DNA of 64,000 nt from Paenibacillus dendritiformis. GTDB lineage: Bacteria > Bacillota > Bacilli > Paenibacillales > Paenibacillaceae. The DNA is taken from positions 5,882,001-5,946,000 of the forward strand of contig NZ_OX216966.1 of the NCBI RefSeq assembly GCF_945605565.1. The letters run 5' to 3'. Below, piece by piece: positions 4,590-54,690 of this stretch (its first letter is position 1; each line of letters begins with the position of its first letter). The notes under the pieces are model-generated. The model worked only from the letters and a program-made list of their open reading frames with translations, was not told the origin of the DNA and ran no database searches. The position numbers and the translations under genes were made by a program.

Positions 4590-4889
4590 GGAACACAAAA
4601 TTCCTGCATGCCTGCAGCTTTTTGCCACGATCCACGGGGGGAAACGGGAAAATCTGCAAAAATCAGGCTGTTGGAAAACCCCTGTTTTTACGATGGGGTG
4701 GAGATGTCCAGTTACACAATCAAAACTTGGCACTCTTCTCAACGGCCTTATTTTACGGAACCAAGAGACCGCGTCGGATCCTGGGGGCATCATCGCCTTC
4801 AGGAGGCATCGTTGCCTCCTGCGGCTTGAACATGTGGAGGGAATTGCTGCTATTTTACAGTAATTTCGGCTCAATGAATCAACATCCCG
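4590..4889 (+). repeat. Mosaic non-coding repeat, copy A, left part
   Basis: Non-coding segment with clear sequence similarity, in reverse complement, to 54287-54690. Shared landmarks are GGTGGAGAT, CAAAACTTGGCAC, AACGGCCT, AAGAGACCGCGTCGGAT and GGAGGGAATTGCTGCTATTT. It carries a perfect hairpin AGGAGGCA-TCGT-TGCCTCCT at about 4802-4821 and degenerate short dyads of the type AATTCCTGCA..TGCAG. A 38-base phrase at about 4669-4706 recurs with few mismatches at about 6527-6564 in the right part. The element continues at 6262 after the IS256 insertion. Confidence 0.85.
4881..4889 (+). repeat. 9-bp target-site duplication of the IS256 element
   Basis: AACATCCCG at 4881-4889 is repeated exactly at 6262-6270, directly outside the inverted ends of the element. 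IS256-family transposition usually duplicates 8 or 9 bp, so this marks a simple, fairly recent insertion. Removing the element and one copy rejoins the mosaic repeat into the same order as its partner copy near 52.8/54.3 kb. Confidence 0.9.
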
Positions 4890-6261
4890 GTCAAGTCCAA
4901 ATTTATGTGTAAATTCCTCAATGAGATTGCCAGAGCAAAAAGATGCCTAAGCTGCAGGCTTGTTTAGCTTCTTCCTCCACTCATGGTACTCTTTCATCTC
5001 GATATACTTTTTCCCAGCAGACCACTTTTCGTCCTGCTCAATCAACAAGGCTCCAAAAAGACGAAGGACAGAGGCTCGGTTGGGAAAAATGCGAATGACG
5101 CGTTCTCGCCGCCGCAACTCGCCATTTAGACGTTCTACGGCATTTGTGGTGCGCGTACGTATCCGACAGGCAGCCGGAAGTGCCAAGATCGCTGTCGCAT
5201 CGTCAAAGCCCTCTTCCAAGACCCTCATGGCTTTTGGAGCTTTATTTTCAAATGCTTCTTGTGTCCGCTTCAGCAGTGTACGGGCACTGGTCTCGTCCGC
5301 AGCTTCGTAGATGGCCCTTATATGGGCCTTCAATTCATCACGGCATGATTTAGGAGCAGCGTCCAGAATATTACGCATAAAGTGGGTTTGACACCGTTGC
5401 CAGGTTACACCTTGGAAATGTTGCCGAATCGCACTTACCAAACCACCGTGATGGTCACTTGTAATGACATCAACACCGTGCAACCCGCGACTTTTGAGGT
5501 GCGTAAAGAAAGCCCCCCACGTTGCTGCTGACTCGGTATCATCTACGGTAAGTCCAAGCAGTTCCCGATAGCCCTCCGAATTAATCCCTGTGGCAATCAT
5601 CACGCCACGTGAGCGCACACGGCCGTCTTCCCGGACTTTAACGTACAGGGCGTCGACAATAAGAAAAGGGTAGGCCTTGTCCAGTTTTCGGTTATTCCAC
5701 TCTTCTACGAGGGGATCCAGCTGTTTGCAGAGCTCACTAACTGTTGATTTGGAGAACTCTGTCCCGCACAGTTCTTCTGTGATATTGCTTACTTTTCGTG
5801 TTGACACACCATTGAGTACCATCTCCATCATGGCTAAGACAAGGGCCTGCTCGCTTCGTTGGTAACGAGCAAAGAGTTCCGTAGAGAACTGACCGTTGCG
5901 GAAACGCGGTACTTGCAGGGTTAATTGACCCACCCGTGTTGTCAGCCGATGAGGGTATGTTCCATTACGGTAACCTGCACGCTCTTCTGAGCGCTCGTAG
6001 TGTCCTGCCTTCAACTGTTCCGTTGCCTGCGCCTGCAAAACTTGATTCAAGATAGATTCTAATAAGGTCGCTATCCCCTCATCTCTTGATTCGGATAAAA
6101 ACAGTTGATGCAAAAGTTGTGAATCTAGGGTAATCTGGTATTGAGTCATAGCTAGATCCTCCTTTGGAATGTTGTCTCGACAACCTCATTCTATACGAGG
6201 ATCCTTGCTATGGCTCTACTTTTTTGCCATTTTCTTTTTACACAATTATATGGACTTAGCT
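4890..6261 (-). mobile_element. Complete IS256-family insertion sequence (1372 bp)
   Basis: The ends are imperfect inverted repeats of about 24 bp: GTCAAGTCCA...TGTGTAAA on the left and, read inward from the right, GCTAAGTCCA...TGTGTAAA. A 9-bp direct repeat flanks the element and a single full-length transposase gene fills it, so the element looks intact and potentially active. It sits inside the mosaic repeat, not in a gene. Confidence 0.92.
4947..6149 (-). CDS. IS256-family transposase
   Basis: A 400-residue mutator-type transposase that would cut and join the ends of the surrounding element. The DDE triad is visible as the Asp in FLIVDALYVKV (about 166), the Asp in VITSDHHGG (about 231) and the Glu in TTNAVERLNGELRRRER (about 339). 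The C/H pair of the family is present in WQRCQTHFMRN. Length matches the usual 390-410 residues and no frameshift is present. It is the only gene in the element; the ATG start has AGGAGG-like sequence just upstream inside the right end. Confidence 0.95.
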   Translation of the reverse strand: MTQYQITLDSQLLHQLFLSESRDEGIATLLESILNQVLQAQATEQLKAGHYERSEERAGYRNGTYPHRLTTRVGQLTLQVPRFRNGQFSTELFARYQRSEQALVLAMMEMVLNGVSTRKVSNITEELCGTEFSKSTVSELCKQLDPLVEEWNNRKLDKAYPFLIVDALYVKVREDGRVRSRGVMIATGINSEGYRELLGLTVDDTESAATWGAFFTHLKSRGLHGVDVITSDHHGGLVSAIRQHFQGVTWQRCQTHFMRNILDAAPKSCRDELKAHIRAIYEAADETSARTLLKRTQEAFENKAPKAMRVLEEGFDDATAILALPAACRIRTRTTNAVERLNGELRRRERVIRIFPNRASVLRLFGALLIEQDEKWSAGKKYIEMKEYHEWRKKLNKPAA

Positions 6262-6815
6262 AACATCCCGAGGAATTGCTGCAAATCTACATCATTTTAG
6301 GCCCTTTTGCTTCAAGCCGAAGCGAAACGGGTGAAATTCCTGCATTTTTGCAGGATTCCCATTCTGGTAAAGTCGTCCATATCGAATTGCTGTATTTACG
6401 CAGGATTTCGCTTACCGAATAGGCGTGTCTGGAGAAATCGTGCAGTTTTGCGGATTTCGCCTACCGGATAGACGTGTCTTTCGCCTACCGGATAGACGTG
6501 TCTAGGGAAATGGTGCAGTTTTCAGGCCGTTGGAAAACCCCTGTTTTTACGAAGGGGTGGAGATTATCCATTTTCCTGCTCAAAACTCGGCACCCATAGC
6601 GTTTTAAATCGATTTTTTCTACGGAGAGACGAGATCCACCACATAAAAAATGAAGTGCCAAAAAATCCCTTGGACTTTCTCAACAGCCTGAAAAATACAG
6701 GAATTTCAGGGCATAAGAGGTTAAGTTGAGGAAAAACTGATAAAAAGGTGTATTTTTGCATTAATGTAAGAGAAAAGAGTCACTTTAAGGAGAAAATACT
6801 GTATTATTGCAGGAT
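6262..6815 (+). repeat. Mosaic non-coding repeat, copy A, right part
   Basis: Continues the mosaic broken by the IS256 insertion. In reverse complement it matches 52500-52890, for example CAGGCTGTTGAGAAAGTCC here against CAGGCTGTCGAGAAAGTCC there, and the phrase GAAACGGGTGAAATT in both. It contains a string of short dyads at roughly 50-75 base intervals (near 6271, 6330, 6381, 6436, 6511, 6690 and 6796), of the type AAATTCCTGCATTTTTGCAG, plus a 29-base local tandem duplication ending GGATAGACGTGTCT (about 6450-6502). No coding frame here looks protein-like. Confidence 0.85.
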
Positions 6816-6930: not shown

Positions 6931-7152
6931 GTTTTTGTACTCCCAGAGCGGAAAAACATCACAATTGTCCATACAAAGGTGGACATAAAGGGATTATTCC
7001 TCTTACGAGGTCATTTTCTATATGTAGAGATATCATTACAAAAAAACTACATATAGTTTCATTTCAAATAAGCGCAAACTATCTCCTTCACAGAAATGTG
7101 TCTACTATTTGGAAGACATTCTCTCTTTGTTTTCCACTGTAGAAGGACAATT
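6931..7152 (+). repeat. Direct repeat II, first copy (about 220 bp)
   Basis: Aligns over its whole length with 8230-8450 in the same orientation. Shared landmarks are a hairpin TGTCCATACAAAGGTGGACA, a second dyad (CTATATGTAG..CTACATATAG), and TCTACTATTTGGAAGACATT followed by TTTTCCACT. The pair brackets the AT-rich Nudix cassette. From 7153 to 7297 I see only a modest hairpin ACCGCC..GGCGGT near 7256-7275, which may end transcription of the Nudix gene. Confidence 0.8.
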
Positions 7153-8229: not shown

Positions 8230-8450
8230 TTTGTACTTCATGAGTGGAAAAACAGCATATTTGTCCATACAAATGTGGACATGAAGGGGTTATTCTCTTA
8301 ACGAGGTAAAATATCTGTATATAGAGAAGTGATCGCAGGAATACACTATATATAGTATCGTTTCATATAAGCACAATCTATCTCTCTCATAGAAAAGCGT
8401 CTACTATTTGGAAGACATTTCCTCGCGATTTTCCACTATGGAAGGACATT
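8230..8450 (+). repeat. Direct repeat II, second copy (about 220 bp)
   Basis: Partner of 6931-7152, same orientation. It keeps the hairpin TGTCCATACAAATGTGGACA, the dyad TGTATATAG..CTATATATAG, and TCTACTATTTGGAAGACATT. Copies differ at scattered positions, so duplication is not recent. Between 8118 and 8229 I see only a probable promoter region of the small secreted protein. Confidence 0.8.
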
Positions 8451-52399: not shown

Positions 52400-52890
52400 A
52401 TGAAAAATGAGGAGGGGCAAGACGGGACGAGCGGCGAATTGCAGAGGCGGGACAACGGGGAGATGTGACGAATGTGGGGTATGGAGACGGCCGCGGGACG
52501 AGCGGCGAATGAGGAGGAAGCAGCGAATTTCTGCATATGTGCAGGCTGTCGAGAAAGTCCAGAGGATTTTGGGGCACTTCATCAGGACTTGTCTCTCAGT
52601 AGAAAAATTTGTTCTGATCGAGTGCCTGAAAGCTGCAAAATGAAATGTCTATCCGATAGGCGAAGTCCTCCAAACGGCACGGTTTCTCAAGACATGTTGA
52701 TTCAGCTGGCAAAATCCTGCAGAAATACAGCAATTCTGTAGGGACGACTTCACCAGAAGGGGAATCCTGCAAAACGGCAGCAATTTCACCCGTTTCTCTT
52801 CCACTTCGCTCAAAAGGGCCTAAAATGATGCAACTGTGCAGCAATTCCTTGAAATGTGGACTCGTTGAGCCGAAATTCCTGTAAAATCGG
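52400..52890 (-). repeat. Mosaic non-coding repeat, copy B, left part
   Basis: Reverse complement of the right part of copy A (6262-6740), including GAAACGGGTGAAATT, TGGTGAAGTCGTCC against TGGTAAAGTCGTCC, and the CTGTCGAGAAAGTCC phrase. The outermost part, 52400-52520, is a pair of phrases GCGGGACGAGCGGCGAAT. Short dyads occur near 52520, 52711, 52765 and 52829. The element is broken at 52891 by the IS3-family insertion and continues at 54283. Confidence 0.82.
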
Positions 52891-52963
52891 CTAGGCCCCC
52901 TATATCCGGAGTCCTGCCCACCAAAAAATATGCGTTCTTAGAATTGCTTCCTATTTCGCGTAA

Positions 52964-53935
52964 TTACATGGCCCGATGATATTTTGATCGGTCTTCCAGC
53001 GTCATGACCCACTTCGAGAATTGCGATGGTGACATGCTCTTTAGGCTACCATGCATTCTGCGGTTGTTGTAGAAATCCATATAACGATCAAGTGCTTCAT
53101 AGGCCTCTTCAAATGTCATAAATTCCGTCAGGCTGAACAGATCACGTTCGAGTATGCTATGAAATGACTCAATGTACGCGTTCATATTCGGGCTACGCGG
53201 CGGGATCCGTTCATGGACGATCTCCAGACTCTCGCACGTATCACCAAACAGCTTGCTGACAAACTGAGGCCCGTTGTCGGTGCGGATGGTAGGTAAGTCA
53301 TCGCCGGGATTCAGACGTTCTTGCAGCGCACGGCATAGGGTCTGCACGACGTGCTTGGCCTCACACACGGAACCCCGGTATTGTCCGACGACGACGCGGT
53401 CAAATACGTCGATGATACTGAGTACGAAAAAGAATCGCTGACGCCCAACCACGTACCCATATTTAATGTCAATTTGCCATAGCTGGTTCACCCCGGTTAC
53501 CGTTCGGTTTCTCGGTACTCTGCGAGGATGTTTGCTTGTTTTCTTTCGTTGTTTCTGAAGAATTCCTAACTCCTTGCAAATGCGGTACGCCTTTTTCTTG
53601 TTTAGGATCAAGCCACGTTGTCTGCGGAGGCACAGCGCCAAATTCTTGTACCCATACACGTGCTCTTCTCCTTCCAGGAGTTCGAGCATCCATTCTTTAA
53701 TCTGTTCATCTGCAACTTTCCGGCCCGTGTTCGTAGAGGAAAATCCAGGTACAGGACGCCCTTTTAGGCCGCATGAAGCACGTTCTTCGGTGTTGCATGC
53801 CTCTCGTTTCTTCCGGCCATAGTACGTCGATTCGTGAACTTTCAGGATACGCAGAACCTTAGCTGTTGCATGCCCCCGCTTAATAAACGATTCTGCTACT
53901 TCAAGTCTTTCAGATAAGCGGGGTTCTTCTTTTTT
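52964..53935 (-). CDS. IS3-family transposase OrfB (DDE integrase part)
   Basis: Read from the frameshift site, about 323 residues. The DDE triad is visible as Asp in LWQIDIKYG, Asp in IRTDNGPQFVSKLF and Glu in NMNAYIESFHSILERDLFS, the last two separated by about 35 residues as expected. The upstream part (RLEVAESFIKRGHATAKVLRILKVHESTYYGRKKREA split over two stretches) has no ATG near its start, so expression depends on -1 slippage from orfA to make the OrfAB transposase; the first ATG in frame is far inside the domain (53689). Confidence 0.92.
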   Translation of the reverse strand, partial: KKEEPRLSERLEVAESFIKRGHATAKVLRILKVHESTYYGRKKREACNTEERASCGLKGRPVPGFSSTNTGRKVADEQIKEWMLELLEGEEHVYGYKNLALCLRRQRGLILNKKKAYRICKELGILQKQRKKTSKHPRRVPRNRTVTGVNQLWQIDIKYGYVVGRQRFFFVLSIIDVFDRVVVGQYRGSVCEAKHVVQTLCRALQERLNPGDDLPTIRTDNGPQFVSKLFGDTCESLEIVHERIPPRSPNMNAYIESFHSILERDLFSLTEFMTFEEAYEALDRYMDFYNNRRMHGSLKSMSPSQFSKWVMTLEDRSKYHRAM

Positions 53936-54216
53936 ACGAGTTCTCGCAGGATTTCGATCTCAAGTTCTTTTTCACCCAGGAGCTTTTTTGCCTGTTCAAA
54001 CTTGGCCTCCACCTCTTGAAGTCGACGGAGTTCTTGAAGATGCTCGTCTGCTGCAGGTATCTCCTCTTGACTAATTTCGTCACGGTGGTCTCTAACCCAA
54101 ACACGTACAGTCTCCGGATGTACACCGTACATTCGGGCGAGAGTTCCCACCTTAATGCCGGCCAGTGCTTCCTTTACGATTTCCAAGCGTATTTCTTTGC
54201 TAAAGTGCTTTCCCAT
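53896..54216 (-). CDS. IS3-family transposase OrfA (HTH protein)
   Basis: A 106-residue DNA-binding protein with a helix-turn-helix (EIRLEIVKEALAGIKVGTLARMYGVHPETVRVWVRDHRDE, in two stretches, about 7-48) and a leucine-zipper-like C-terminal helix (LRRLQEVEAKFEQAKKLLGEKELEIEILRELVKKK) used for dimerisation. It binds the element ends. Translating ribosomes that slip at A-AAA-AAG near its end make the fused transposase. Confidence 0.92.
   Translation of the reverse strand: MGKHFSKEIRLEIVKEALAGIKVGTLARMYGVHPETVRVWVRDHRDEISQEEIPAADEHLQELRRLQEVEAKFEQAKKLLGEKELEIEILRELVKKKNPAYLKDLK
53929..53935 (-). promoter_or_regulatory. Programmed -1 frameshift heptamer of the IS3 element
   Basis: On the minus strand A-AAA-AAG in the orfA frame (GTA AAA AAG AAG), slipping back one base to CGT AAA AAA GAA in the orfB frame. 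It lies 30-40 bases before the orfA stop. Confidence 0.85.
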
Positions 54217-54286
54217 ACTTATTGCCCCCTCTGATAACAGCTTATAATATTGGGGCCAAGAGCTCCAGTTTAATTAGGGGGCCTAG

Positions 54287-54690
54287 GAGAAATAGCAGCA
54301 ATTCCCTCCACACGTACAAGCCCCAGGAGGCCATGATGCCTCCCGAAGGGAACGATGCCTCCTAAAGGCAATAATGCCTCCAGTATCCGACGCGGTCTCT
54401 TGGATCCCGTAAAATCAGGCCGTTAAGAAGTCTATGGGAATTTGGGCCGCTTCATTTTTTATAGGGCGGATCTCGTCTCTCAGTAGAAAAAATCGACTTA
54501 AAACGCTCTGCGTGCCAAGTTTTGAGTAGAAATATGCATAATCTCCACCCCTTCGTAAAAAACAGAGCGTGTCCACCAGCCTGCGGTATTGCAGGAATTC
54601 CTTTAACGGTGGAAACTTCACCAGAGAAAACTGTAATTTCGCAGTAATTTTTGGCAAGTCGTGTTGTGAGAAGCAAGCGGGGTTGTCTCC
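54287..54690 (-). repeat. Mosaic non-coding repeat, copy B, right part
   Basis: Reverse complement matches both the left part of copy A (AAGAGACCGCGTCGGAT, GGAGGGAATTGCTGCTATTT) and a stretch at 6548-6655 of copy A (GGGGTGGAGATTAT, ATAAAAAATGAAG, TCGATTTTTTCTAC). It carries three related 25-30 base phrases with ATGCCTCC or AGGAGGC, and short dyads near 54587 and 54629. No gene is seen up to 54746. Confidence 0.82.

Follow-up and report, generated by a model that had tools for sequence, protein, structure and literature searches.

What kind of DNA forms the two similar stretches that face each other in the window, and how did it come to be there? The window is a stretch of 64,000 nucleotides (bases 5882001-5946000) from the 6.72-Mb single-contig genome of Paenibacillus dendritiformis, referred to here as G000. 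A preliminary description had taken the two stretches for diverged, non-coding members of a dispersed element family, not gene remnants, and had suggested that recombination between them could invert the intervening 46 kb. We call the element E and its two copies in the window A and B (Table 1).

Copies and anatomy of the element

With the inserted insertion sequences (IS) left out, DNA alignment matches A with B in opposite orientation over 393 bp at 78% identity (E value 1e-94) and over another 170 bp at 83%, and the longest exact word common to both is no longer than 24 bp. The homology first described is thus genuine, and the landmark phrases on which it had been based are found in both copies in the same order. 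The extents given at that time did contain the element but were too wide at the edges, because neighbouring REP-like palindromes had been taken in; the mosaic look of the copies stems from one damaged terminal repeat (R) in each, the left one in A and the right one in B. Also as described earlier, each copy contains an IS. Copy A is interrupted by an IS256-family IS, whose transposase matches NF033543 with 396.6 bits (cut-off 150) and also PF00872, and copy B by an IS3-family IS, whose ORFs match PF01527 and PF00665; against NF033516 (cut-off 160) the second ORF scores 172.4 bits and the first 34.6, which is below the cut-off. The terminal R repeats, the targeting of palindromes, the target duplications, the empty sites and the likely IS1182 parent had been missed. 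The left end of copy B lies in one REP palindrome and its right end in a different one. A separate local repeat of about 78% identity was seen between positions 6934-7096 and 8230-8395 of the window.

Table 1. Positions in the window of copies A and B of element E and of the features associated with them
Feature	Position	Strand	Remark
Target duplication AAAAAT, left of copy A	4658..4663	+	empty site CCTGC-AAAATT-ACAGG in G015
Copy A of element E, split by IS256-family IS	4664..6690	+	
Left R repeat of copy A, about half deleted internally	4664..4749	+	
9-bp duplication AACATCCCG from IS256-family insertion, first copy	4881..4889	+	
IS256-family IS	4890..6261	-	transposase 4947-6149
9-bp duplication AACATCCCG, second copy	6262..6270	+	
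Right R repeat of copy A, complete	6523..6690	+	
Target duplication AAAAAT, right of copy A	6691..6696	+	
Junction palindrome, copy B right end	52530..52545	.	sequence reading
Copy B of element E, split by IS3-family IS	52542..54583	-	
Right R repeat of copy B, about half deleted internally	52542..52628	-	B-type subfamily end
ATTT adjoining IS3-family insertion, second copy	52884..52887	-	
IS3-family IS	52888..54289	-	ORFs 53896-54216 and 52964-53689
ATTT adjoining IS3-family insertion, first copy	54290..54293	-	in palindrome loop
Left R repeat of copy B	54416..54583	-	
Junction palindrome, copy B left end (REP half-arm + element tip CAGG)	54580..54595	.	sequence reading

DNA searches of G000 with one query per copy returned at least 48 and at least 80 matching places, which cluster into at least 45 loci; adding matches to a right-end pattern brings this to at least 62 loci with whole or partial E. 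All 17 loci added through right-end matches were retrieved and contain E sequence. These counts are lower bounds, obtained with the best 40 candidates scored per search and with loci within 3.5 kb merged; right ends with two mismatches were excluded, save for that at 140612, where an R match is present. The locus count took in 41 of the 48 and 40 of the 80 search rows, and the remaining rows fall within the same loci. Many of the copies in G000 are only partial. E also occurs in numbers in four other genomes of the genus, which makes five of 19 (G000, G007, G008, G015 and G018), and G002 and G011 have one R match each. E has dispersed and has been mobile in the past.

A clean copy (G000:C1:6200071-6200807) has 737 bp, and uninterrupted copies range from 680 to 781 bp (n = 20). 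E begins with CAGGCTGTTGGAAAACCCCTG and finishes with CTTTCTCAACAGCCTG. The R segments of the clean copy, residues 1-168 and 569-737, are direct repeats that are 87.6% identical, and each R (about 169 bp) has CAGG..CCTG tips of its own. The roughly 400 bp between them contain, as we read the sequence, palindromes of the type GAATTCCTGCA-N4-TGCAGGATTC. Two subfamilies were recognized: a short form with a right R of about 55 bp, and a B-type of about 475 bp that resembles copy B. With homologous direct repeats at both ends, each with its own tips, and with R also existing alone (see below), E has a composite structure, and it probably arose by the joining of two R.

The longest ATG-initiated ORF per copy has a median of 61.5 aa (range 42-185; 20 copies), against 55 aa in shuffled sequences, whose 95th percentile is 101; at least one of the 20 copies, with an ORF of 185 aa, lies beyond that percentile. 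ORFs of more than 200 aa within the window copies all belong to the inserted IS. ORF length thus gives no coding signal for E and, as expected of a MITE, E has no transposase gene. An Rfam search of the window returned no family at gathering scores. Together with the further copies, these results support the earlier view of a non-coding, dispersed family rather than gene remnants. Being intergenic in the window and containing internal hairpins, E might also be a family of conserved regulatory or structural RNA loci, retained for function and not spread as a parasite. We rejected this possibility on the lack of an Rfam match; it is made still more improbable by copies that are truncated and interrupted by IS and by the varying presence of E between orthologous loci.

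Several kinds of IS are nested in E. The palindromes that it carries are landing sites for other IS. An IS110-family IS occupies one position in seven copies (its frame was read in one of them), located in G000:C1 near 508k, 1266k, 2911k, 4132k, 5354k, 6387k and 6459k. In five of these both E ends adjoin other DNA, two of them (508k and 2911k) with a matching 6-bp duplication around E, and one IS110-bearing E sits inside another E. IS256-family copies are located between palindromes of E, three at one site and that of window copy A elsewhere. The three, at G000:C1:949k, 753k and 983k, share an identical position in E and the same 9-bp duplication CTCAATGAG, pointing to either target choice or copying of an IS-bearing E. 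Judged by its ends, an IS1182-like IS is present in three E copies, in one of which a frame of 486 aa was read. It was set aside as mobiliser of E because its ends read AAGTCAATTTC and because, at 202.3, it stays under the cut-off of 270 for NF033551.

The proposed inversion was not seen and was rejected on collinearity in relatives. G018 and G015 have both loci on one strand and in the order of the window, spanning about 57 and 49 kb. For G008 the comparison covers the inner flank of A alone, which agrees with B in orientation; G007 was left out of this comparison as too fragmented.

Targets, empty sites and the presumed parent

Among the 23 E copies with both ends, 15 are flanked by an exact duplication of 6-8 bp, four by a duplication with one mismatch and four by none. 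In 20 of the 23, CTGC lies no more than 14 bases away on the left side or GCAG no more than 14 bases away on the right side; the three with neither nearby are at 1474802, 2891870 and 6345132. With the boundary fixed at 6 bp, only 11 of the 23 copies have the exact duplication; 10 have CTGC to the left, 12 have GCAG to the right and only five have both. Beyond these 6 bp, the flanks pair at 4.7 of 8 positions, compared with 2.1 when shuffled. E usually lands in a REP-like palindrome, CCTGC-N6-GCAGG, whose loop forms the duplication. The half-arms on either side are met by the element tips CAGG and CCTG, so that a CCTG/CAGG hairpin could re-form at each junction.

Sister genomes have vacant sites. 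Locus A, which reads CCTGC-AAAATT-ACAGGAATTTC where vacant in G015, is occupied in G000 as CTGC-AAAAAT, E, AAAAAT-ACAGGAATTTC; in G018 the right end appears to lie in the next palindrome downstream. Locus B is vacant in G007 and G008, where two perfect palindromes, 112 bp apart, enclose a third that is imperfect. The insertion in G000 and G015 has its left end in the first of these palindromes and its right end in the last, and the DNA that lay between them is gone; G015 has a tandem double element there. G018 shares the position of the left end in the first palindrome but has a truncated right part. Copies of this sort, which lack matching duplications, probably stem from recombination between neighbouring insertions or from adjacent deletion. 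E therefore shows both the target site duplication and the empty sites typical of a MITE.

An IS with matching ends was found in G008 (Paenibacillus sp. 2.1). It is present in 26 copies with 99-100% protein identity, one of which has a stop codon, and measures 1564 bp. Its transposase of 452 aa belongs to the IS1182 family (NF033551, 432.5 bits, cut-off 270; PF05598 and PF13751). The left 33 bp of this IS equal the left end of E with one mismatch, and the right tips differ by two bases; E thus shares its terminal inverted repeats (CAGGCTGTTGGAAAACCCCTG.. and ..CTTTCTCAACAGCCTG) with an autonomous element, as a MITE would, and the likeness is limited to the ends. Of 26 loci retrieved by pattern, the 23 with the whole IS in the retrieved stretch are the basis of the target counts. 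An exact 6-bp duplication flanks 19 of the 23; 15 lie between CTGC and GCAG, and 22 have one or both of these motifs. Their flanks pair at 6.4 of 8 positions, compared with 2.2 when shuffled. The presumed parent thus uses palindromic targets, as reported for some IS1182 members. At three loci (S229609, S3430787 and S5338116), by alignment limits, G008 has the IS where G000 has E. An IS of this type is likely to be the mover of E. No parent-like transposase was found at E ≤ 1e-20 in G000, G015 and G018, so E looks orphaned there; G007 has fragments of such a transposase, up to 95% identical.

The targets raise the question of whether E is instead a REP/BIME array that has grown larger and owes its spread to a RAYT (Y1 transposase) and not to an IS1182 enzyme, given that it is rich in REP-like palindromes and located among them. 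CCTGC-N6-GCAGG cores number 69-103 per genome in the five E-rich genomes and 4-20 in the other 14 (0-20 per genome with a reversed control core), counts that are partly inflated by E, which itself carries such a core. Matches to Y1_Tnp number 32 in the E-rich G007, two in G000 (one with stop codons, one partial) and one in G008, and none was found in the E-rich G015 and G018; an associated RAYT is thus lacking in two of the genomes concerned. E moreover has fixed ends that match those of an IS1182-family IS and makes target duplications. We rejected a RAYT or REPIN origin on the genome distribution of Y1_Tnp and consider it highly unlikely. The palindromes are worth recording in their own right, as an abundant REP-like family in G000, G007, G008, G015 and G018 with no matching RAYT distribution.

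Solo repeats and duplicated hairpins in relatives

R alone exists as a MITE of about 170 bp in G002, G011 and other genera of the Paenibacillaceae. A search with the 169-bp solo R of G011, with the best two candidates scored per genome, gave matches in 33 of 295 genomes of the family and in 11 of 19 genera, E-rich genomes included. At least 30 loci were returned, five of them from E-rich genomes. Among the 25 others, nine have repeats of at least 12 bp at both ends, and for 13 a repeat was sought and none found; weaker repeats at L166, L176, L184, L196 and L205 were excluded from the count. In 20 further stretches, clear repeats were seen at L201 and L203. Many other solo R loci match at the right end only; the upstream frames inspected at these look like ordinary genes, and no transposase was recognized among them.

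G121, G021, G079 and G181 contain multicopy IS1182 elements that measure 1554-1562 bp and have similar ends. All 16 copies examined, which were not preselected for long repeats and for which repeats from 4 bp were allowed, are flanked by exact duplications of 16-33 bp. With strict boundaries, the duplications are hairpins in these 16 copies and in nine of 11 solo MITEs (16-47 bp overall), with a mean pairing of 0.95 (range 0.78-1.00) in the 25 cases; this test returns repeats of at least 14 bp only, and L157 and L177 were not returned. As the solo MITEs had been picked for long repeats, their hairpin nature is a test for them and their length is not. Runs of T come after many of the duplicated hairpins, in the manner of intrinsic terminators.

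An IS in G003 with a transposase 60% identical has a 6-bp duplication between ACTGC and GCAGT in both copies seen (L105 and L111). The palindrome targeted by this IS1182 relative, ACTGC-N6-GCAGT, is a different one. An IS in G201 has a 7-bp duplication with no clear hairpin, in our reading. In a tree of transposase C-termini, G008, G003 and G201 form one group with support of 94/99, just under the strong-branch mark of the tool, apart from G121, G021, G079, G181, G293 and G019; of the seven inner branches of this small tree, five lack resolution, and G012 is a long branch. Duplication of the loop or of the whole hairpin is apparently divided by transposase lineage, the type being scored in the second set for G121, G021, G079 and G181, leaving out G293 and G019. 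The IS1182-type transposase is encoded in two overlapping frames in G079, G121, G021 and G293 (L208-L211 and others), which suggests programmed frameshifting rather than decay.

Proposed mechanism and comparison with known systems

The copy family, the ends shared with an IS, the palindromic targets, the short duplications and the empty sites are best explained, at a probability of about 0.9, if E is a composite MITE of large size, moved in trans by a transposase of the IS1182 family that joins the element ends around the loop of a REP hairpin. Two R MITEs of about 170 bp would have trapped some 400 bp of REP-like palindromes between them, and the outermost R ends would then have been mobile as a single unit. 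The transposase would join these ends on either side of the CCTGC-N6-GCAGG hairpin loop, which becomes duplicated upon insertion, and the tips CAGG..CCTG would rebuild a small hairpin at each junction.

With a DDE enzyme, the length of the duplication is the spacing of the two joining points, and a stagger of 6 bp is ordinary. The target of E could accordingly be picked by primary sequence alone, CTGC-N6-GCAG read by a dimeric transposase, with hairpin formation irrelevant. Most loop-type insertions are indeed at CTGC or GCAG (22/23 copies of the G008 IS and 2/2 of the G003 IS), and the 7-bp duplication in G201 has no clear hairpin. The sister clade, however, duplicates hairpins of 16-47 bp of unrelated sequence, which an enzyme with a fixed stagger that reads sequence would explain poorly; we regard this alternative as possible and lean against it. 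That the duplication length tracks unrelated hairpins is hard to obtain on linear DNA and fits joins at the feet of an extruded hairpin, and in the 6-bp case the joins would be made at its loop. Four such targets form structures when their single strands are folded; the fold of the vacant G015 locus A is weak (-1.4 kcal/mol).

Duplication of the loop and of the whole hairpin within one family, beside the published hairpin deletion by IS1272, suggests that cutting is set by structure. In a broader form, on which we are evenly divided, IS1182-type transposases would measure their target by the hairpin, cutting at its foot or loop, so that structure sets the duplication length; lineages would differ in using terminators (16-47 bp), REP loops (6 bp) or deletion as in IS1272, and E would carry its own landing sites. 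If the hairpin is measured in this way, one is left at both ends of the element, so the flanking genes keep their terminator and the landing site is renewed. Whole-hairpin duplication would leave a terminator on both sides, and such elements may therefore do little harm. In this Paenibacillus clade, REP palindromes, MITEs, composites and further IS form a nested repeat landscape that seems to have arisen by the same logic.

The nearest known systems are IS1272 and TnSha1 of Staphylococcus, described here from excerpts of two papers (PMC5678879 and PMC4923244). Like the elements studied here, they are of the IS1182 family and target hairpins that include transcription terminators, and TnSha1 uses an extra IS1272-type end to carry DNA, in which it resembles E. 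Insertion in hairpins, several confirmed as terminators, was accompanied by deletion (Furi et al. 2016, PMC4923244). For IS1272 the hairpin is lost, and in the excerpts loop and whole-hairpin duplication are drawn only as hypothetical pathways c and b, respectively (Wan et al. 2017, PMC5678879); a preference of some IS1182 members for palindromic targets is also stated there. In contrast to this deletion or replacement of the hairpin with no duplication, the insertions studied here duplicate either the 6-bp loop or a whole hairpin of 16-47 bp, and E encodes nothing recognizable. The palindrome preference of some IS1182 members was thus already known; the present data add both duplication outcomes, which the excerpts give as possibilities, in dozens of natural insertions, and these make structure-directed transposition directly testable.

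In titles and abstract openings of the open literature, ISfinder aside, we recognized no description of E, of its parent or of whole-hairpin duplication by IS1182. As far as excerpts of two Paenibacillus papers go, one (PMC3961195) names IS1182 once, as a common family, and mentions neither palindromes nor MITEs, and in the other (PMC8370563) it has a single mention, in a table. Neither IS1182 nor Paenibacillus appears as a word in the main text of a review of bacterial MITEs (PMC10969869). The MITEs in the sections of that review used here share with E their short, gene-less form, terminal inverted repeats and target duplication, their many intergenic copies and a likely mobilisation in trans; E differs in its length (680-781 bp) and in its composite build, two terminal MITEs enclosing a core rich in palindromes. 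From the same sections comes the case of IS1111 in the REP of QMITE2 in Coxiella, an IS in a MITE-borne REP-like palindrome, as found inside E. There the IS family and the host are others, whereas three kinds of IS (IS1182-like, IS110 and IS3) use the palindromes of E, and E itself also inserts in such palindromes. Finally, as far as consulted accounts go, E has short dispersed palindromes in common with REP, BIME and REPIN sequences, and it is set apart from them by its IS-type ends and duplications and by the lack of a matching RAYT distribution. E is thus gene-less mobile DNA of a kind already known, in a form that is new.
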